Assembly: GCA_030524715.1 (NCBI GenBank)
Contig: JAUNGB010000055.1
Span: 1-36,755, forward strand
Direction of reading: 5' to 3'
Length of the DNA: 36,755 nucleotides
Origin: Eubacteriales bacterium
GTDB taxonomy: Bacteria > Bacillota > Clostridia > Lachnospirales > Lachnospiraceae
Shown one piece after another: positions 26,512 through 36,755 of the stretch. Position 1 is the stretch's first letter; every line of letters begins with the position of its first letter. The notes beneath the pieces were generated by a model. That model had not been told where the DNA came from. It saw nothing but the letters and a program-made list of their open reading frames with translations, and made no database searches. Position numbers and translations under genes: made by a program.

Positions 26512-29500
26512 ATGCTACGTTCATTAATTTCTTTATTTCATGCCCAGATTTATGAGGATGCATGGGCTGATTATCAGCGTACGGTAAATACCGTGACCTT
26601 TGTCCGCTGGGATTATATTATTCTTACCGCTTCTAACGAGCAGCAGGCGGAAGGATTCCGCGCTCAGCTGAAGGAGCGCGAGAAGGCAGGAACGCTTCCG
26701 ATGGGAACACATTTTGCCGTGCTGCCGGATCCGGACGGAAAGCGTGTGGGCTCAGGAGGCGCCACCTTAAATGTCATCCGTTATATAGCGCAGCAGGAAG
26801 GAAAAGCGGATTTTTCCGGGCTGCGTATTTTAGTCATCCACTCTGGCGGCGACAGTAAGAGAGTACCCCAGTATTCGGCGCTTGGAAAGCTTTTTTCACC
26901 GGTTCCCCATGAACTGCCGGACGGACGCTCATCCACACTCTTTGATGAATTTATGATCGCAATGGCAAGCGTTCCGTCCCGCATTCAGGAAGGGATGGTG
27001 CTTCTGTCAGGAGATGTGCTGCTGCTGTTCAATCCTTTGCAGATCGATTATCCGGGAAACGGAGCTGCGGCAATCTCTTTCAAAGAAAAGGTGGAGACAG
27101 GCAAAAATCATGGCGTTTATCTTCGGGGCGCGGACGGCAACGTGGCAAAATGCCTTCAGAAGCAGTCTGTTGAGACACTGCGGGCAGCCGGCGCAGTCAA
27201 TGAGCAGGACTGCGTGGACATTGACACAGGAGCAGTGATCTTTTCCGCAAAAATGCTGTCGTCCCTGTACGGACTGGTGGCAGATGACGGCGTATTAAAT
27301 GAAGAAAAATATCAGGCTTTTGTCAACGACACCGTAAGGCTTTCTCTGTATGCGGATTTTCTGTATCCCCTGGGAGCGGACGCAACCCTGGAGGATTTCT
27401 ATAAAGAGAAGCCGGAGGGCAGCTTTTCCGACGCTCTGACAGAATGCCGCACGGCAGTGTGGAATGCCCTTCGTCCCTATCGGATGAAATTGCTGCGACT
27501 GGCGCCGGCAAAGTTTATTCATTTTGGAACAACGAAAGAAATCATGCATCTGATGTCAGATGAAATTGAGCAGTACAGATATCTGGGATGGAATAATTGC
27601 GTCAACAGCAGTATCAGTACGCCGGGAGCTTCCGGTTATAACAGCATATTGTCCAGCAGGGCGTCCTGCGGTGAAAATGTATATCTGGAAGTCAGCTATG
27701 TTCACAGCAAAGCCAGGGTTGGCAGCAACGTGCTGCTGTCCTATGTGGATATCCACGATGAAACGATTCCCGATGGGGTTGTTCTTCATGGACTTAAGCA
27801 GAAAGATGGCCGTTTTGTCGTCCGTATTTATGGAGTAAATGATAACCCGAAGGGGCTGCTTGAGAATGGATGCTCCTTTTTTGATACGACACTGGAAGAG
27901 TTTATGCTCAGAAATGGAATCAGTTGCGAAGAGCTTTGGCATGGTGAAGAGCATTACCTTTGGCTGGCAGAACTGTATCCGGCCTGCGATACGATTGTTG
28001 ACGGAATTGCCGCGGCATTGAACATTTATGCGATGGCCCATGGAGAAGGGGATGTGGAAGCGTGGAGAAAGGCCAGACGTAAGAGCCTTTGTTCCGGGTT
28101 TAATGAAGCGGATCCCAATGCTTTGATCGCGTGGGAAAAACGTATGCAGGAACTGGCAGCTATGGATAAGCTTGCCAAAAAGATCCGCGCAGGAGAACCG
28201 GTGTCAGAGTGCAGAAATACTCTGGAAAAAGGCAGTCTGTCAAAAATCCAGCGGGAATGGTTTGACCGCCGTATGCAGCAGGCAGATTTTAGCGAAAAGA
28301 TGCGCCTGCAGTATTACGTGGGACGGGCATTGGGAGGAAAGGAAGGCGAAAAGCTGATTGGAGACTGCTTCTGTACGATCCAGAACTCCGTTTTGTCCAG
28401 CAATGCAGACAGTATCCGCGAAAACCCTGACTGCCGGATTCTTATGGATCGGCATACTGTGCGGCTTCCCTTGCGTGTTAACTGGGGCGGCGGCTGGAGC
28501 GATACTCCGCCGTACTGCAATGAGCATGGCGGTACGGTTCTGAACGCGGCCCTGCTTCTGGATGGAAAGATGCCGGTTGAGGTGACGCTTCAAAAGCTGG
28601 AAGAGCATAAAATCGTCTTTGATTCCCGCGATATGGATACCCACGGAGAATTTGACACAATCGAACTTTTGCAGTCCGTGGGCAACCCCTATGATCCGTT
28701 TGTACTGCAGAAAGCAGCCCTGCTTGCCTGCGGAGTAATTCCGGCAGCGGGCGGCGATCTTGAAACAGTATTAAACCGTCTGGGAGGCGGTTTCCTGATG
28801 AAGACGGAGGTTACGGATGTGCCCAAAGGCAGCGGCCTGGGTACCAGCAGTATTCTGGCGGCCGCATGTGTAAAAGGCCTGTTTGAATTTATGGGAATCC
28901 AGCATACGGAGGACGATCTGTACAGTCACGTTTCCGTGATGGAGCAGATCATGAGCACCGGAGGCGGCTGGCAGGATCAGGTGGGAGGCCTGAGCAATGG
29001 TGTGAAATATATTACCACAATGCCGGGACTGAAGCAGGATATTAAGGTGCAGCATTTAAATATCCCGGAGGAAGCGTGGAACGAGCTTCGGGAAAGATTC
29101 GCCCTGATCTATACCGGGCAGCGCCGTCTTGCGAGAAATCTGCTCCGGGATGTGGTAGGCCGTTATATTGGCAATGAAAAAGATTCCCTGTATGCACTGA
29201 ATGAAATCCAGAGGATGGCGGCGCTGATGCGCTTTGAGCTTGAACGGGGGCATATCGATGATTTTGCAAAGCTGCTGGACCGCCATTGGGAACTTTCCAA
29301 GATGGTGGATGCAGGCAGTACCAATACATTGCTGGATCAGATCCTTGGCTCCATCGATGAGTTTATTGACGGCAGACTGGTTTGCGGCGCCGGCGGAGGC
29401 GGCTTCCTGCAGGTAATTCTCAAAAAAGGAGTGACAAAACAGCAGGTTCATCAGCGGCTGAAATCCGTATTCCAGGACAGCGATGTGGGCGTGTATAACT

Positions 29501-29514
29501 GTACGCTTATCTGA
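26512..29514 (+). CDS. fkp: Bifunctional L-fucokinase / fucose-1-phosphate guanylyltransferase
   Basis: FKP turns free L-fucose plus ATP and GTP into GDP-L-fucose, the salvage route feeding fucosylated surface glycans. The 1000 residues are near the family size (about 950). The N-terminal nucleotidyltransferase half has VLPDPDGKRVGSGGATLN (about 70-87), followed by a beta-helix region with repeated short turns (about 355-450). The C-terminal GHMP kinase has RVNWGGGWSDTPPYCNEHGG (about 654-673), the ATP loop PKGSGLGTSS (771-780) and GAGGGGFLQV (about 959-968). GAGG upstream supports the ATG. It converges on the AraC gene with only 4 bases between the two stops. Confidence 0.95.
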   Translation: MLRSLISLFHAQIYEDAWADYQRTVNTVTFVRWDYIILTASNEQQAEGFRAQLKEREKAGTLPMGTHFAVLPDPDGKRVGSGGATLNVIRYIAQQEGKADFSGLRILVIHSGGDSKRVPQYSALGKLFSPVPHELPDGRSSTLFDEFMIAMASVPSRIQEGMVLLSGDVLLLFNPLQIDYPGNGAAAISFKEKVETGKNHGVYLRGADGNVAKCLQKQSVETLRAAGAVNEQDCVDIDTGAVIFSAKMLSSLYGLVADDGVLNEEKYQAFVNDTVRLSLYADFLYPLGADATLEDFYKEKPEGSFSDALTECRTAVWNALRPYRMKLLRLAPAKFIHFGTTKEIMHLMSDEIEQYRYLGWNNCVNSSISTPGASGYNSILSSRASCGENVYLEVSYVHSKARVGSNVLLSYVDIHDETIPDGVVLHGLKQKDGRFVVRIYGVNDNPKGLLENGCSFFDTTLEEFMLRNGISCEELWHGEEHYLWLAELYPACDTIVDGIAAALNIYAMAHGEGDVEAWRKARRKSLCSGFNEADPNALIAWEKRMQELAAMDKLAKKIRAGEPVSECRNTLEKGSLSKIQREWFDRRMQQADFSEKMRLQYYVGRALGGKEGEKLIGDCFCTIQNSVLSSNADSIRENPDCRILMDRHTVRLPLRVNWGGGWSDTPPYCNEHGGTVLNAALLLDGKMPVEVTLQKLEEHKIVFDSRDMDTHGEFDTIELLQSVGNPYDPFVLQKAALLACGVIPAAGGDLETVLNRLGGGFLMKTEVTDVPKGSGLGTSSILAAACVKGLFEFMGIQHTEDDLYSHVSVMEQIMSTGGGWQDQVGGLSNGVKYITTMPGLKQDIKVQHLNIPEEAWNELRERFALIYTGQRRLARNLLRDVVGRYIGNEKDSLYALNEIQRMAALMRFELERGHIDDFAKLLDRHWELSKMVDAGSTNTLLDQILGSIDEFIDGRLVCGAGGGGFLQVILKKGVTKQQVHQRLKSVFQDSDVGVYNCTLI

Positions 29515-30546: not shown

Positions 30547-31599
30547 ATGAGTAAAACTGCATTAATTACCGGGATCACCGGTCAGGACGGATCTTATCTT
30601 GCGGAGTTTCTTCTGGAAAAGGGATATGAAGTCCATGGGATTACCCGCCGGGCCTCTATTTCCAATACTGCCAGGATCGATCATCTGATCGCTGACGGAG
30701 CGGTCAGGCTGCATGACGGCGACCTGACAGATTCCTCATCGTTGATTCGTATCATAAATATGGTCCGGCCAGATGAAATTTATAATCTGGCCGCGCAAAG
30801 CCATGTACAGGTTTCCTTTGATGTGCCGGAGTATTCCGGAGATGTGGACGCTCTTGGGGTTCTGCGTATTCTTGAAGCTGTCCGCATCCTGGGGCTGACC
30901 AAAACCACCCGTGTCTATCAGGCTTCTACTTCTGAACTGTACGGCAAGGTGGAAGAGGTTCCCCAGAGAGAGACCACTCCCTTCCACCCGTACAGTCCCT
31001 ATGCGGTTGCCAAACAGTATGGCTTCTGGATCACAAAGGAGTACCGCGAGGCGTATGGGATGTTTGCGGTGAACGGTATTTTATTTAATCATGAATCGGA
31101 GCGCCGCGGTGAAAATTTTGTTACCCGTAAGATCACACTGGCGGCAGGGAGGATTGCGGAAGGCCTGCAGGATCATCTGGAGCTTGGAAACATGGATTCT
31201 CTCCGTGACTGGGGATACGCAAAGGATTACGTTGAGTGTATGTGGCTGATTATGCAGCAGGAAAAGCCGGAAGACTTTGTGATCGCCACGGGGGTACAGC
31301 ATACAGTCCGTGATTTCACAGAGAAGGCTTTTGCAGTCAACGGAATGACGATCCGCTGGGAAGGAACCGGCCTGGAGGAAAAGGGCTATGACGCAGAGAC
31401 AGGAAAGCTTCTGGTCTGCGTGAATCCGGAATGGTTCCGTCCCACAGATGTAGACAATCTGTGGGGCGACCCGACAAAGGCGAAGATGGTACTTGGCTGG
31501 AATCCGCAGAAGACTTCTTATGAGCAGCTGGTCGAGATTATGGCAAAGCATGACCGTGAGCTGGCAAAGCGGGAAAGAGCCGTAAAGAATGCAAAGTAG
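30547..31599 (+). CDS. gmd: GDP-mannose 4,6-dehydratase
   Basis: Gmd makes GDP-4-keto-6-deoxymannose from GDP-mannose, the first step of de novo GDP-L-fucose. It is an extended SDR enzyme of 350 residues. The NAD(P) motif [10 protein letters not shown] is at 9-18, the catalytic Tyr152-x3-Lys156 lies in [11 protein letters not shown], and [18 protein letters not shown] and [12 protein letters not shown] are family signatures (the usual HESPRRGETF reads [10 protein letters not shown]). AAAGGAG precedes the ATG. It is the first gene of a four-gene operon with fcl, manC and manA. Confidence 0.97.
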
Positions 31600-31646
31600 G
31601 AGCTATAAAGAATGCAAAGCAGAGCTATAAAAAATGCAAAGTGAGG
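31582..31646 (+). repeat. Three tandem 20-23-base units between gmd and fcl
   Basis: Copies at 31582-31604, 31605-31626 and 31627-31646 share TAAARAATGCAAAG. The first copy includes the last codons and stop of gmd and the third runs into the fcl ribosome site. The array looks like a recent slippage duplication and lengthens the gap between the two genes. Confidence 0.8.
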
Positions 31647-31663
31647 AAAAGAGGAAAACAATT

Positions 31664-32608
31664 ATGATGGAGAAAAATGCAAAAATTTACGTTGCAGGAC
31701 ACCGGGGGATGGTAGGATCTGCCATTGTCCGTGAACTGCAGCGTCAGGGATATACAAACATTGTTACACGTACGCATCAGGAACTGGACCTCTGCCGTCA
31801 GGCTGATGTAGAGAAGTTCTTTGCAGAGGAAAAACCGGAGTATGTGTTTCTTGCGGCTGCCAAGGTTGGAGGCATTATTGCCAATCAGGAGGCGCTGGCG
31901 GATTTTATGTGGTTTAATATGACCCTTGAAATGAATGTGATTCATTCCGCATGGCAGAACGGCTGCAAAAAGCTGGAATTTTTGGGTTCAAGCTGCATCT
32001 ATCCCCGTATGGCACCCCAGCCGATGCCGGAAAGCTGCCTGCTGACCGGAGAACTGGAGAAGACAAACGAGGCCTATGCGCTTGCGAAGATCAGCGGTTT
32101 GAAATACTGCGAATTTTTGAACCGGCAATATGGCACGGATTATATTTCCGTTATGCCGACCAACCTTTATGGCCCCAATGACAACTATCACCCGACTCAC
32201 AGCCATGTCCTGCCTGCACTGATCCGCCGTTTCCATGAAGCGAAGGAACAGAACCTGCCCTATGTGACCTGCTGGGGGGACGGTTCTCCTCTGCGTGAAT
32301 TTTTATATGTGGATGATCTTGCGAATCTCTGTGTATTCCTGATGAATCATTACACCGGCAATGAAACCGTGAATGCCGGTACCGGCAAAGAACTGACGAT
32401 CAGAGAGCTGACAGAGCTTGTGGCAAAGGTAATCGGCTATGAGGGGGAAATCCGCTGGGATACCTCCAAACCAAACGGAACACCGCGTAAGCTGCTGGAT
32501 GTAAGCAAGGCCACAAAGCTTGGCTGGACCTATAAGACGGAACTGGAAGACGGTATCCGGCTGTCTTATGAGGATTTTCTGAACAATCCCATGCGCGCCG
32601 AAAGATAA
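31664..32608 (+). CDS. fcl: GDP-L-fucose synthase
   Basis: Fcl (WcaG) is the epimerase-reductase that converts GDP-4-keto-6-deoxymannose to GDP-L-fucose with NADPH. It has 314 residues. The nucleotide motif is [11 protein letters not shown] (about 10-20), [15 protein letters not shown] holds the catalytic Ser and Cys, the Tyr/Lys pair is in [13 protein letters not shown], and [11 protein letters not shown] and [15 protein letters not shown] are family marks. The frame is open from 31634, but GAGG before ATG 31664 gives the usual N-terminus. It acts directly on the product of gmd. Confidence 0.97.
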
Positions 32609-32632: not shown

Positions 32633-33946
32633 ATGAACATTGTATTATTATCCGGCGGTTCCGGCAAGCGTCTGTGGCCGCTTTCCAACGATATTCGTTC
32701 CAAACAGTTTATCAAGATCTTCAAGGCAGAAGACGGCTCCTATGAGTCTATGGTACAGCGTGTCTATCATCAGATAAAAAAGGCGGATGCAAATGCGACG
32801 GTGACGATTGCTACGGGCAAAACCCAGGTTTCCGCTATCCACAATCAGCTTGGAGAGGAAGTGGGGATTTCCGTAGAACCCTGCCGCCGGGATACGTTTC
32901 CGGCAATCGCACTGGCCACAGCCTATCTGACTGATATAAAAGGAATCAATCCGGAGGAATCCGTGGTTGTCTGCCCGGTTGATCCCTATGTAGAGGATGA
33001 TTATTTTGATGCGCTGAAAGAACTGGCAGCCCAGGCGGACAAAGGGGAAGCCAACCTGGTTCTTATGGGAATAGAGCCCACGTATCCAAGCGAGAAGTAT
33101 GGGTATATTATTCCTGAGAGTTCCGGAAAAACAGCGCGGGTTTCTACCTTTAAGGAAAAACCGACGGCAGCGGCGGCGGAAGAATATATCCGTCAGGGGG
33201 CTTTGTGGAACGGCGGAGTATTTGCTTACAAACTGAAGTATGTTCTGGACAAAGCCCACGAATTGATAGATTTTACAGATTACCAGGACCTATATGCAAA
33301 GTATGACACCCTTACCAGAATTTCTTTTGATTATGCGGTTGTTGAGAAAGAGGATAAGATTCAGGTGATGCGCTTTGCAGGACAGTGGAAGGATCTGGGA
33401 ACCTGGAACACGCTGACAGAAGCCATGGTTGAAAATGCGGTCGGGGATGTGATGATGAATGAAACCTGCAAAAATGTCCATGTGGTGAACGAGCTGGATG
33501 TTCCGATTTTGGCTATGGGCCTGCATGACGTAGTGATTTCCGCGTCCCCGGAGGGGATTCTGGTATCTGATAAGGAGCAGAGCTCTTATATCAAGCCCTT
33601 CGTGGACAAAATAGACCAGCAGATCATGTTTGCTGAAAAATCCTGGGGAAGCTTCCGCGTGCTGGATGTGGAAGATGAAAGCCTGACGATTAAGGTTACG
33701 CTGAATGCAGGACACAGTATGAATTATCACAGCCATAAATACCGTGACGAGGTATGGGTGGTCACATCCGGTGAAGGACGGACCGTGGTAGACGGCATGG
33801 AACAGGAGGTTCGTGTCGGCGACGTAGTCACAATACAGGCGGGCTGCCGGCATACTATTATGGCAGAAACGGAGCTGAAGCTGATTGAAGTACAGCTTGG
33901 CAGGGAGATAAGCGTTCATGACAAACAGAAATTCCCGTTGGAATAA
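32633..33946 (+). CDS. manC: Mannose-1-phosphate guanylyltransferase with cupin domain
   Basis: ManC makes GDP-mannose from mannose-1-phosphate and GTP. The nucleotidyltransferase domain (about 1-335) begins with the signature LSGGSGKRLWPLSNDIRSKQ and has FKEKP and WNGGVFAY. A C-terminal cupin domain of about 100 residues (SWGSFRVLD to RHTIMAETELKLIEVQLG) is the type II mannose-6-phosphate isomerase module, which may add isomerase activity. It has 437 residues, slightly shorter than typical 460-480 residue proteins. It overlaps manA by 29 bases. Confidence 0.95.
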   Translation: MNIVLLSGGSGKRLWPLSNDIRSKQFIKIFKAEDGSYESMVQRVYHQIKKADANATVTIATGKTQVSAIHNQLGEEVGISVEPCRRDTFPAIALATAYLTDIKGINPEESVVVCPVDPYVEDDYFDALKELAAQADKGEANLVLMGIEPTYPSEKYGYIIPESSGKTARVSTFKEKPTAAAAEEYIRQGALWNGGVFAYKLKYVLDKAHELIDFTDYQDLYAKYDTLTRISFDYAVVEKEDKIQVMRFAGQWKDLGTWNTLTEAMVENAVGDVMMNETCKNVHVVNELDVPILAMGLHDVVISASPEGILVSDKEQSSYIKPFVDKIDQQIMFAEKSWGSFRVLDVEDESLTIKVTLNAGHSMNYHSHKYRDEVWVVTSGEGRTVVDGMEQEVRVGDVVTIQAGCRHTIMAETELKLIEVQLGREISVHDKQKFPLE

Positions 33947-34937
33947 CGAGGCTGCTTTAAACAATCCCTTCCTTTTAAAACCAGCCGGAAAGGATTATCT
34001 CTGGGGCGGCAGCAGATTAAACGACGATTTTTCAAAAAATATTGATATGAGTCCGCTGGCGGAAACGTGGGAGTGCTCTACCCATCCGGACGGCCCGAGT
34101 ATGGCTGCCAGCGGAGAATTTGAAGGGCAGCTGCTTTCTGATATTTTGCGGGCGCATCCGGAGTATCTTGGCACACACCCTAAAACAAAGGGAGAGCTTC
34201 CGATTCTCATCAAATTGATTGACGCGAAAAGGGATCTTTCGGTCCAGGTGCATCCCAGCGATGAATATGCCCGTAAACATGAGCACGGGCAGCTGGGCAA
34301 AACGGAGATGTGGTATGTTCTGGACGCGGCTAAGGGCGCAAAGCTGGTTTACGGCTTTCACCACGATACGGATAAAGAAAGTATACGCAAAAGCATTAAC
34401 AACGGTACCATCGAAAAATATCTCCAGAAGGTACCCATTCGGAAGGACGATCTGTTTTATATCGAAGCAGGGACAGTACATGCCATTGGAGCAGGGGCGT
34501 TAATTGCGGAGATCCAGGAAAGCTCCAATCTTACATACCGCATGTACGATTACGGCCGGGTTGATAAAAACGGCAAAAAACGGGAGCTGCACGTGGAGAA
34601 GGCCCTTGAAGTGGCCAATCTGAAAGCAAGCATCGAGCCCAGACAGCCTCTGCGCGTTTTAAAATACCGTCAGGGCTGCGCCTCTGAGCTGCTGTGCCGC
34701 TGTAAATATTTTGAAGTATACCGGATGCTTGTAAATACGGAACACTGCAGAAAGCTGGTAGGTTATCAGGCGGACAGCACCTCGTTCCGTGTACTGCTCT
34801 GTACGGATGGCTGCGGCGCGGCACACTTTGATAATCATATTTTTAGCTTCTTTAAGGGAGACTGCATTTTTGTGCCGGCAAATTCCGTAAAGCTCCGGAT
34901 ACACGGCATGGCGCAGTTCCTGGACGTCAGAGGATGA
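33918..34937 (+). CDS. manA: Class I mannose-6-phosphate isomerase
   Basis: ManA interconverts fructose-6-phosphate and mannose-6-phosphate, the entry to GDP-mannose. Its 339 residues fit the short bacterial type I enzymes. Zinc ligands are seen in VQVHPSDEYA (His), GKTEMWYVLD (Glu) and EAGTVHAIGAG (His). AGGGAG 9 bases upstream supports the ATG inside the end of manC, so translation is coupled. With manC, gmd and fcl it makes the path to GDP-fucose complete except for phosphomannomutase, which must be encoded elsewhere. Confidence 0.95.
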   Translation: MTNRNSRWNNEAALNNPFLLKPAGKDYLWGGSRLNDDFSKNIDMSPLAETWECSTHPDGPSMAASGEFEGQLLSDILRAHPEYLGTHPKTKGELPILIKLIDAKRDLSVQVHPSDEYARKHEHGQLGKTEMWYVLDAAKGAKLVYGFHHDTDKESIRKSINNGTIEKYLQKVPIRKDDLFYIEAGTVHAIGAGALIAEIQESSNLTYRMYDYGRVDKNGKKRELHVEKALEVANLKASIEPRQPLRVLKYRQGCASELLCRCKYFEVYRMLVNTEHCRKLVGYQADSTSFRVLLCTDGCGAAHFDNHIFSFFKGDCIFVPANSVKLRIHGMAQFLDVRG

Positions 34938-35439
34938 CGTCTGTATATCAGAATACCGTATTTTTCAGGTCAATATTCTGCAGGCGCAGGAAGTGTACCT
35001 GAAAATATTAGGAATCTAAGTTTTAAATAAAAACGTCGATTGCCAGGAGTCACAAACATAGAAAAGTGACTGCTGGCACTTTTTGTTCTAAAAAATTGCC
35101 TTCATAACTATCCTTTCTTTGCATTATCCGATATTGTGTTCATATGAGGCGGGGAGATTTTAAAATCCTGAAATAGAATTTACCGGAAATGGGAACTGGC
35201 AGCAGCTTTTAAAAGTGCAGCACAGCAGATCAATATTATTTACAGCGGGTCAATATTATTTTAGGATATGTACCTAATTTTATGCTGCGAGTTAAGGGCG
35301 ATAAAAGAAGAAAAAAAACTACAAAAGGCGATAAAGGACAACAAAAGCCGAAAAAAGGAAATGAAAGGAGTAAGCCGTTATATTTACTTTGGTACATAGT
35401 CCGGCCTGAAACTGTGCTGGTTAGTGGGAGGGAAAAATT
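34938..35439 (+). other. Repeat-rich 502-base gap between manA and the Spo0A-C-like gene
   Basis: There is no credible gene here. The gap holds a hairpin (TTTTCAGGT/ACCTGAAAA, about 34963-35007), the terminator at 35041, two direct repeats TCAATATTATTT (35230-35241 and 35250-35261, 20-bp period), two copies of GGCGATAAA near 35298 and 35328 in a purine-rich stretch, and GGGAGGG before the next ATG. It most likely contains the promoter and leader of the Spo0A-C-like gene, but I see no convincing -35/-10 pair. Confidence 0.6.
35041..35086 (+). terminator. Terminator after manA
   Basis: TGCCAGGAGTCAC (35041-35053) pairs with GTGACTGCTGGCA (35066-35078) with a single mismatch over 13 bp, followed by CTTTTTG and more T. 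It ends the gmd-fcl-manC-manA operon. Confidence 0.88.
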
Positions 35440-35886
35440 ATGATCAACGACGATTATTGGTTGGATGAAATATTACGAAGACTGGGAATAACAGAGGCGT
35501 ATAAGGGCTATGACCGTGTCAAAATGGCAGTCTGCCTGGCTCTTGAGGATGAAAAACGTCTGGTAACTTTTCGGGACAGCATTTATAAGTATATGGCTGA
35601 AGAGGAAAATGGCAATTGGAAAAGTGTGGAAAAGAATTTCCGCACGGTAGTAAAGAGAGCATGGACAATTAACCCCGAATTACTGCAGGAGCTGGCCGGG
35701 TACCGCATGTATTGGGCGCCGACAGTATCTGAGTTTATCAGTAATCTTGTGTCCTACCGAAAGAAACAGATTAAGAAAGCAGCTATGCAGGCGGAGCAGA
35801 ATAAGAAGATTGAGATCAAAAATGAACAGTCTGTACAGACTGTTCAAAAGGTTGGTTCACTGGCTGCTTCAGGGATTCAGAATTAA
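35440..35886 (+). CDS. Free-standing Spo0A C-terminal-domain-like DNA-binding protein
   Basis: This is a 148-residue cytoplasmic protein. Residues about 6-108 match the pattern of the Spo0A effector domain: LRRLGITEAYKGYDRVKMAV, WKSVEKNFRTVVKRAW and LAGYRMYWAPTVSEFISNL correspond to the IG-x-KGY, VER-xx-R-xx-W and GY-PT-SEFI blocks of Spo0A. There is no receiver domain, so it cannot be controlled by phosphorelay in the usual way. A basic, Gln/Lys-rich tail (110-148) follows. GGGAGGG precedes the ATG. The loaP gene is 273 bases downstream, so the pair probably regulates a polysaccharide cluster beyond the window. A sporulation role is unlikely (inference). Confidence 0.82.
   Translation: MINDDYWLDEILRRLGITEAYKGYDRVKMAVCLALEDEKRLVTFRDSIYKYMAEEENGNWKSVEKNFRTVVKRAWTINPELLQELAGYRMYWAPTVSEFISNLVSYRKKQIKKAAMQAEQNKKIEIKNEQSVQTVQKVGSLAASGIQN
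35823..35846. repeat. Perfect 24-bp palindrome inside the Spo0A-C-like gene
   Basis: The half-site TGAACAGTCTGT is followed with no spacer by its exact complement. It encodes residues 129-136 of the tail. Such a long, perfect, spacer-free palindrome is unusual inside a coding region. TGAACAG also occurs in the spacer of the candidate loaP promoter at 35996-36002. Confidence 0.75.
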
Positions 35887-35916
35887 GAAACTGCAATATT
35901 AAAGAAACTGCAATAT
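35885..35916 (+). repeat. 17-bp direct repeat after the Spo0A-C-like gene
   Basis: AAGAAACTGCAATAT occurs at 35885-35899 and 35902-35916, a 17-bp period. The first copy overlaps the stop codon. It may be a slippage duplication or a regulator site in the loaP upstream region. Confidence 0.7.
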
Positions 35917-35980
35917 CAGTAATTGGAGATACTGACAGGCATATGGAGTGTAAATAGTTTCGGGATTATCCCGCCTTCGC

Positions 35981-36039
35981 CCTGCATTCAAAGGCTGAAC
36001 AGATATAATCGTCGCATTGCCGCGTTACATTTGTTCAGC
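35981..36039 (+). promoter_or_regulatory. Possible loaP promoter within an inverted repeat
   Basis: TATAAT at 36004-36009 is a perfect -10, but the hexamer 17 bases upstream (CCTGCA, 35981-35986) is a poor -35. GCTGAACA (35994-36001), in the spacer, and TGTTCAGC (36032-36039), just downstream, are perfect inverted arms 30 bases apart. The layout suggests a regulated promoter. Transcription from it would give loaP a leader of about 145 bases. Confidence 0.45.
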
Positions 36040-36159
36040 GTATATATAAAAATATGGAAATCTGGGATTATGAAGCAATGCCGGAATGGCGGAGCCATGC
36101 CCTGACGCAGGTCTTTGCGTATGAAAGCGTATGAAATCATATAAACGGGAGGAAGAACT

Positions 36160-36723
36160 GTGTGGTATGTAATACAGGTGTTTACCGGTCAGGAAGAAAA
36201 AATGAAAGAGATATGTGAATATCAGATACCGGGGGATGTGCTTGAAAAATGCTTCATTCCATATTATGAAGAAATGAAAAAATATCTGGGAGAATGGCAC
36301 AAAGAAAAAAAGATCCTTTTTCCCGGATATCTTTTTGTTATAACAGAACAAATAACCGCACTGCATACAGAACTGAAAAAAATACAGGGCTTTACCAGAA
36401 TCCTGGGAGATCAGACATATTTGCTGCCACTTACTGACGGAGAGGTCGCTTTTATACAACGCTTCGGCGGAGAAGAGCATTTAGTTGAAATGTCCCAGGG
36501 GGTCATTGAGAATGATGAGATTACGATCATCGACGGCCCGCTGAAAGGCTTTGAAGGATGCATAAAAAGAATCGACAGACATAAAAGAAAAGCAGAAATC
36601 CAGATAGAGATGTTTGGACAGCTTGTGAATACGACAGTGGGGATTGAGATTATAAAAAGGACAGCGGTAAAAATGAATGAAGAGAATGAGGAACATAATG
36701 ATACTATAAATGAGCAAATTTGA
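36160..36723 (+). CDS. loaP: LoaP-type transcription antiterminator (NusG paralogue)
   Basis: LoaP proteins are specialised NusG paralogues that ride on RNA polymerase and prevent termination in long biosynthetic operons, often for polysaccharides or antibiotics. The 187 residues show an NGN domain at about 1-103 (MWYVIQVFTGQEEKMKEICE, KKILFPGYLFVI, FTRILGD) and a KOW domain at about 117-165 (ENDEITIIDGPLKGFEGCIK). The start is GTG at 36160, with GGGAGG at 36147-36152. It is much shorter in its linker than RfaH-type proteins, and the NGN sequence fits LoaP. The target operon should lie just to the right, outside the window. The acidic tail NEENEEHND is unusual but harmless. Confidence 0.88.
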   Translation: MWYVIQVFTGQEEKMKEICEYQIPGDVLEKCFIPYYEEMKKYLGEWHKEKKILFPGYLFVITEQITALHTELKKIQGFTRILGDQTYLLPLTDGEVAFIQRFGGEEHLVEMSQGVIENDEITIIDGPLKGFEGCIKRIDRHKRKAEIQIEMFGQLVNTTVGIEIIKRTAVKMNEENEEHNDTINEQI

Positions 36724-36755
36724 AATTTTACCAAAATTACTTAAAATTGCTTAAA

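Follow-up and report, generated by a model that had tools for sequence, protein, structure and literature searches.

The gene for the NusG-paralogue antiterminator LoaP described here is preceded by a structured leader RNA (35989..36101) that is conserved with covarying base pairs, co-occurs with LoaP across genomes and is related to RAGATH-28, an RNA family found beside NusG paralogues in phages. By analogy with known NusG paralogues, we consider it quite probable that LoaP loads onto RNA polymerase at this element, allowing read-through of loaP itself and of glycan genes, and that RAGATH-28 acts alike in phages. The window, that is, the whole stretch of 36,755 nucleotides that was analysed, is one entire contig (G000:C193) of a draft genome (5.28 Mb, 210 contigs, 5% contamination). 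All features are on the forward strand unless indicated otherwise.

The nucleotide-sugar genes proposed by an earlier, sequence-only reading of the window were recovered in profile searches. They consist of an fkp-like gene for L-fucokinase/fucose-1-phosphate guanylyltransferase (26512..29514; PF07959, E 9.8e-89; NF009948, 472 bits, below the cut-off of 721), gmd, encoding GDP-mannose 4,6-dehydratase (30547..31599; TIGR01472, 521.6 bits, cut-off 415), a GDP-L-fucose synthase-like gene, fcl (31634..32608; NF047922, 474.6 bits, below the cut-off of 500), a manC-like mannose-1-phosphate guanylyltransferase gene (32633..33946; TIGR01479, E 3.6e-56, below the cut-off) and manA, encoding a class I mannose-6-phosphate isomerase (33918..34937; TIGR00218, 153.1 bits, cut-off 116.2). 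A gene for an AraC regulator is listed on the opposite strand between the fkp-like gene and gmd. Between manA and the following gene, which encodes a standalone Spo0A effector domain (Spo0A-C), there are 502 nt containing a terminator-like hairpin (35041..35084; 12 bp with one mismatch, then a C and five T; −20.4 kcal/mol, z −4.2). The terminator scan, limited to loops of 3-8 nt, does not list this hairpin. The Spo0A-C gene probably forms its own unit behind this terminator.

As the same reading had proposed, the 187-aa product of loaP (36160..36723) is a NusG paralogue of the LoaP class. The profile NF033641 (antiterm_LoaP) scores 185.3 bits, best among the NusG families and above its cut-off of 125, compared with 74.8 bits for NusG and 55 bits for the UpxY family. 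The protein reads KK where its best PDB match, 8f5g, has an ER pair. GDP-fucose genes lie upstream of loaP in the window and glycan genes often adjoin loaP in its relatives; proximity of LoaP to polysaccharide genes is already known (PMC12691694; PMC13174815). The proposed role of LoaP as a surface-glycan antiterminator is favoured by the glycan neighbours of its relatives and by the conserved leader RNA, but the partnership with Spo0A-C that was part of the same proposal is not. The LoaP of Bacillus velezensis depends on an RNA hairpin in the leader and counteracts NusA (PMC12691694). UNCG hairpins (stem of at least 4 pairs) were not found near loaP in the window (34937-36160 and 36661-36755), and only two of 48 other LoaP loci have one with an uninterrupted stem of at least 5 pairs, 204 and 674 nt downstream. 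As the UNCG hairpin is missing here, the RNA recognised by this LoaP clade must differ. A LoaP scan of genome contigs yielded one locus, from a Lachnospiraceae metagenome-assembled genome (49% identity), whose leader is unreadable as the locus starts 55 nt before LoaP; on the strength of this relative we provisionally assign the genome of the window to the Lachnospiraceae.

The contig stops 32 nt past loaP, within the left end (36704..36755) of a MITE-like repeat that is about 275 bp long. Seven other contig ends of the same genome share the closing 52-57 nt of the window, which are also found, at 93% identity, in an internal copy on contig C32 (G000:C32:53008-53292); this copy is 275 nt long and has inverted ends CTATAAATGAGCAAATTT. 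Many contig ends in this assembly carry the repeat, and in the window its insertion site is the 3' end of loaP. From position 36704 onwards it supplies the final loaP codons; the LoaP domain is complete, with profile positions 1-165 ending at 36657. Six copies of the repeat are flanked by target duplications of 7-8 nt, but the window does not pair in this way and no right neighbour was identified through its target duplication. The sole unpaired right flank found, that of contig C112, starts with genes of the glycosyltransferase, O-antigen-ligase and acyltransferase types; it shares only 4 nt of the duplication with the window and, given this mismatch, C112 is no more than a candidate continuation after loaP. 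Left flanks C161 and C196 likewise lack a full duplication match. For three sugar-transferase contigs of the same genome (C116, C111 and C137), no link to loaP was found. The operon following loaP in the window is therefore one that we infer rather than read from the contig.

For comparison, 13 of the 64 genus genomes and 17 of the 150 genomes in a family sample have a LoaP over the cut-off, the genome of the window being counted in both. All listed matches at E up to 1e-28 (genus) and 1e-30 (family sample), 53 loci in total, were fetched with longer flanks. Three loci with a 'LoaP' score of about 100 bits (L079, L097 and L099) adjoin ribosomal-protein-like genes by eye and were consequently taken as housekeeping NusG and dropped. 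L035, a locus of the same genome as the window and below the LoaP cut-off, was likewise dropped from the locus counts. Of the resulting 50 other LoaP-class loci (L083-L134 minus two housekeeping NusG loci), 38 exceed the curated cut-off and 42 extend at least 1.5 kb to each side; the flanks have a median length of 7.8-7.9 kb.

Upstream of loaP, 8-mers are common to up to 20 of 26 loci (window included), versus a maximum of 4 in one shuffled set, and the best k-mer downstream is common to 7 of 26 loci only. These shared words mark an element that in the window lies in the gap separating loaP from the Spo0A-C gene. The covariance model R1, built on 21 sequences with the window copy itself among them, matches the window element with 73.6 bits (E 5.2e-14). 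Across the 21 copies the element is 103-157 nt long and consists of a 5' hairpin with loop UCGUCGCuUUGCCGCG, a CAUA linker, a short 3' hairpin and a tail AUGGCGAAGC. In the window, the 5' hairpin P1 (35994..36039) is a 15-nt inverted repeat, 87% complementary, with conserved loop UCGUCGCAUUGCCGCG and a fold z of −5.07. The 3' hairpin P2 (36061..36085) joins UCUG (36061-36064) with CGGA (36082-36085), and the tail GGCGGAGC (36088..36095) is predicted to form a pseudoknot with loop positions 36014-36021. Double changes occur at 8 of 9 P1 pairs across the 21 aligned copies, window included, at 2 of 4 P2 pairs and at 10 of the 21 pairs of the whole RNA. The covariation score is 0.380, versus 0.159 ± 0.016 after shuffling and no more than 0.144 with the pairing partners slid. 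For the pairing between loop GCUUUGCC and tail GGCGAAGC, 95.2% of cells are paired in the 21 sequences; no double changes are seen among them, positions being invariant or changed on one side, and in view of this lack of covariation the loop-tail pairing stays a prediction. As a whole, the window element folds little better than shuffles (z −1.68).

The element is characteristic of a subset of LoaP genes. Among the 25 loci scoring above 220 bits with our own HMM (window excluded), it is located upstream of loaP in 20 and downstream in one; for the other four, it is found elsewhere in genomes G228, G205 and G132, and not at all in G151. Below 220 bits, the strict pattern detects it in one of 23 loci; these strict-pattern counts and the UNCG counts given above take in 48 of the 50 loci, L110 and L129 falling under the score filter. 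Some of the divergent LoaP loci have weak R1 matches, as do L058 (E 0.0085), L047 (0.077), L061 (0.28) and L049 (0.86). The element is thus a feature of the clade that contains the LoaP of the window. Divergent elements downstream instead of upstream of loaP were observed in G227 (L092/L074; R1, 42.6 bits) and, as a weak match, at L058 in G069 (R1, 23.1 bits).

Whole genomes were scanned with R1, for which either the 60 or the 25 top candidates were scored in each genome. Among these best-scored candidates, the element is present in 13 of 13 genus genomes with LoaP over the cut-off and in one of the 51 others (Fisher 1e-12), and in the family sample in 11 of 17 genomes with LoaP and one of the 133 others (Fisher 1e-11), counts that are partly circular in that many of the same genomes supplied the loaP leaders behind R1. 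With the model genomes left out, it is present in 5 of 11 LoaP genomes versus 2 of 184 others (Fisher 4e-6). As the genomes are related, none of these Fisher values is independent; even with the model genomes removed, the count speaks for a link between LoaP and the element. In one of the two exceptions, G022, a broken LoaP ORF follows the element (L209, G022:C5), an apparent case of loaP decay with the element still present. In the other, from the family sample, the contig ends 9 nt past the element. Distal copies in LoaP genomes precede glycan genes in five of eight cases: a sugar transferase gene (G205), fkp (G001) and DegT aminotransferase genes (G180 and G132 by Pfam, a second one in G132 by eye). 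The three remaining copies, all in G228, have no recognisable glycan genes behind them.

The closest described RNA family is RAGATH-28 (RF03052), with which the window element shares the order of 5' hairpin, CAUA linker, 3' hairpin and tail AUGGCGAAGC, as well as a loop able to pair with the tail; on our reading of its consensus, the RAGATH-28 loop UUCGUC could pair with the tail GGCGAA. The families differ in the sequence of the P1 loop and in their setting, phage terminase operons for RAGATH-28 versus chromosomal loaP leaders here. In terms of score the similarity is below the gathering threshold of 45.3 bits: RF03052 matches the window element with 20.3 bits (E 0.95) and the element of one relative with 27.9 bits. 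In 392 genomes of the order, RF03052 exceeds gathering at one locus (L234); a second match, below the threshold at 29.8 bits (L235), is not accompanied by a LoaP-like ORF.

An RNA-pattern scan of viral contigs revealed 14 RAGATH-28-type loci and no element of the chromosomal pattern. In all 15 loci (the 14 pattern loci and L234), an ORF for a LoaP-like NusG protein on the same strand ends 6-263 nt upstream of the RNA. Thirteen of these proteins are distinct, with two identical pairs and a median identity of 33% over 105 pairs. RF03052 gathering is exceeded at 12 of 13 scanned sites, L247 being below; L242 and L249 were omitted from this site scan as duplicates. NCBIfam ranks LoaP first for all ten phage NusG proteins tested, one of them above the cut-off. 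Terminase genes are found downstream of the RNA in nine of 11 loci, eight of ten by Pfam (one slightly below the cut-off) plus L234 by PHROGs, a count that excludes L239, L240, L242 and L244. A reverse search by NusG protein returned 12 loci, ten of them on contigs already known; on the two new contigs, which are alike in their match, RAGATH-28 scores 52.7 bits, over gathering, 30 nt past the NusG match. R1, built on chromosomal leaders only, matches at the site in all 14 phage loci searched, though weakly (E 1.4e-4 to 0.42); 11 of these matches have E <0.1 and one (L243) is partial, and one off-site match has E 0.15. Since these phage relatives of the element also adjoin loaP-like genes, the element is probably the landing site of LoaP. 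We also think it likely that RAGATH-28 and the LoaP-leader element constitute one superfamily of RNAs that recruit LoaP-class NusG paralogues; protein and RNA together would be a portable antitermination module, common to late operons of phages and surface-glycan operons of bacteria, that would act in cis on loaP and in trans on distant operons. Separately, type II hammerhead ribozymes over the Rfam threshold were observed on two RAGATH-28 phage contigs, six in L246 and two in L241.

Upstream of the element, the 148-aa Spo0A-C protein (35440..35886) indeed matches PF08769 (74.4 bits, E 8.2e-21, residues 10-106), and no match to a receiver domain is found. It shares PF08769 with Spo0A but lacks the receiver and belongs to an orphan lineage. 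Its nearest solved structures are Spo0A chains 1fc3 and 1lq1 (E 5e-5 and 1.6e-4). The equivalog model for full-length Spo0A, TIGR02875, reaches 33 bits over the effector part only, short of its 200-bit cut-off. As there is no receiver, phosphorelay control is not expected, and the protein probably binds DNA independently of it. In a tree of 82 Spo0A-C domains the window protein is on a long orphan branch of unsure position, apart from both supported clades, the full-length and the htpG-type one. Peptide patterns retrieved no relatives from genome contigs or viral contigs. Several repeats surround the gene. Direct repeats with TCAATATT lie ahead of it (34966-34977, 35222-35261), where a 20-nt tandem contains two of the three copies, and a 15-nt repeat pair AAGAAACTGCAATAT directly follows it (35885-35916); these direct repeats are possible operators. 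In addition, a perfect 24-nt palindrome, TGAACAGTCTGTACAGACTGTTCA (35823-35846), within the 3' part of the gene resembles an intrinsic terminator on the minus strand.

Spo0A_C matches are present in 63 of the 64 genus genomes, at least two of them in 56 of the 64. Of 24 standalone loci, window included, 21 (L002, L005-L021, L023, L025 and L026; names by eye) have the same htpG-like gene upstream, with a small conserved gene and then a DegV-like gene usually next, and this receiver-less Spo0A relative is apparently a core gene of the genus. In another standalone subfamily (L172, L181, L184, L186, L187 and L191), the neighbours are, by eye, a response-regulator-like gene (Q0) and a conserved gene resembling those of membrane proteins (Q1). 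Further Spo0A_C genes adjoin, again by eye, a spore-coat/catalase-like gene (L171 and L177) or an rmlD-like gene (L183 and L185).

The sequence-only reading had proposed the Spo0A-C gene and loaP as a candidate control module, to be refuted by a lack of recurrence in other genomes. At the 50 other LoaP-class loci from the genus and family sample, no Spo0A_C is found in the flanks scanned (E up to 10). Conversely, LoaP was not detected near any of 94 other Spo0A_C loci (L002-L033, L135-L196), a few of which overlap and which include full-length Spo0A, many with flanks of 1.5 kb only. This pair search with LoaP models was confined to the genus and the family sample. Given the lack of recurrence at the 50 loci and the orphan branch of the protein, the adjacency is a local event on this evidence. 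It is reasonably likely that chance alone placed the Spo0A-C gene beside loaP, as a standalone paralogue that may once have been mobile. The same genome carries two further standalone Spo0A_C copies, sporadic copies occur in varied settings, some adjoining recombinase-like genes (by eye), and a related Spo0A_C family, phrog_24603, is present in phages. On the other hand, the ORF is intact and has kept a nearly full domain.

A functional pairing appears improbable by comparison. The two-layer switch formerly suggested, in which Spo0A-C at the promoter would set initiation and LoaP would set read-through, is consistent with the order of Spo0A-C gene, leader RNA and loaP on one strand and with the possible operator repeats at 35222-35261 and 35885-35916, but not with the absence of the pair at the 50 other loci, the orphan position of the protein or the lack of 0A boxes. 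With the canonical 0A box, which we take to be TGTCGAA, no exact match is found in 34937-36160, and two matches with one mismatch compare with 3.5 expected in plain shuffles. As a general module the switch is thus abandoned, there being no pairing at the 50 other loci and no 0A boxes; it is possible only as a local arrangement.

UpxY proteins of Bacteroides keep transcription of capsule operons from terminating within the leader ahead of upxY (PMC7819879). Together with the leader hairpin of B. velezensis LoaP, this suggests by analogy that LoaP proteins of the window's clade load at the element. On transcribing the element (35989-36101) in the loaP leader, RNA polymerase would pick up LoaP; the loaded polymerase would then pass terminators in loaP, creating positive feedback, and would likewise read through those in the surface-glycan genes frequently found next to loaP. 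In phages, the NusG paralogue encoded just before RAGATH-28 would similarly switch on the terminase (late) operon behind it. We infer binding, antitermination and feedback from these parallels; Spo0A-C might act locally at the promoter preceding the element, an unsupported possibility. That the element would instead be an independent regulatory RNA of the ligand or ribozyme type, standing before loaP by chance while LoaP uses another signal, is highly doubtful: its long sequence-invariant loop, the hammerhead ribozymes elsewhere on phage contigs L241 and L246 and the naming of RAGATH RNAs from a ribozyme search would fit, but the element tracks LoaP in two genome samples and RAGATH-28 follows NusG paralogue genes in phages.

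LoaP recruitment by the leader element would join several systems in which a nascent RNA counteracts termination. The EAR element of Bacillales eps operons is a nascent RNA that makes polymerase terminator-resistant; it differs from the leader element both in RNA and in partners, a NusG paralogue acting in the present case. We know of no such leader RNA for UpxY. The put RNA of HK022 likewise makes polymerase terminator-resistant as a nascent RNA, with a different RNA and partner in place of the NusG paralogue proposed here. The same applies to lambda nut/boxA-boxB, also a nascent antitermination RNA with other RNA and partners (PMC12691694). UpxY of Bacteroides is likewise a NusG paralogue linked to its own-gene leader and to capsule operons but belongs to another subfamily (PMC7819879). 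Closest is B. velezensis LoaP with its dfn and mln operons, which has in common the LoaP class, an RNA leader element and antitermination of long operons; it has a UNCG hairpin (PMC12691694), in contrast to the larger two-hairpin RNA with predicted loop-tail pairing seen here in the leader of loaP itself, near surface-glycan genes. Searches of the open-licence literature returned no function for RAGATH-28, nothing on the Spo0A C-terminal domain with capsular polysaccharide and nothing on antitermination by a phage NusG paralogue with terminase. No link of RAGATH-28 or of this leader to LoaP was found in the part of that literature covered, and priority for such a link is not settled.

If true, LoaP loading at the leader element would give a function to the orphan RNA family RAGATH-28 and would show how LoaP finds its operons in gut-type bacteria in which the known hairpin is not found. 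It would also provide a sequence handle for listing LoaP regulons, both glycan operons and phage late genes, and would suggest an antitermination module common to phages and their hosts.
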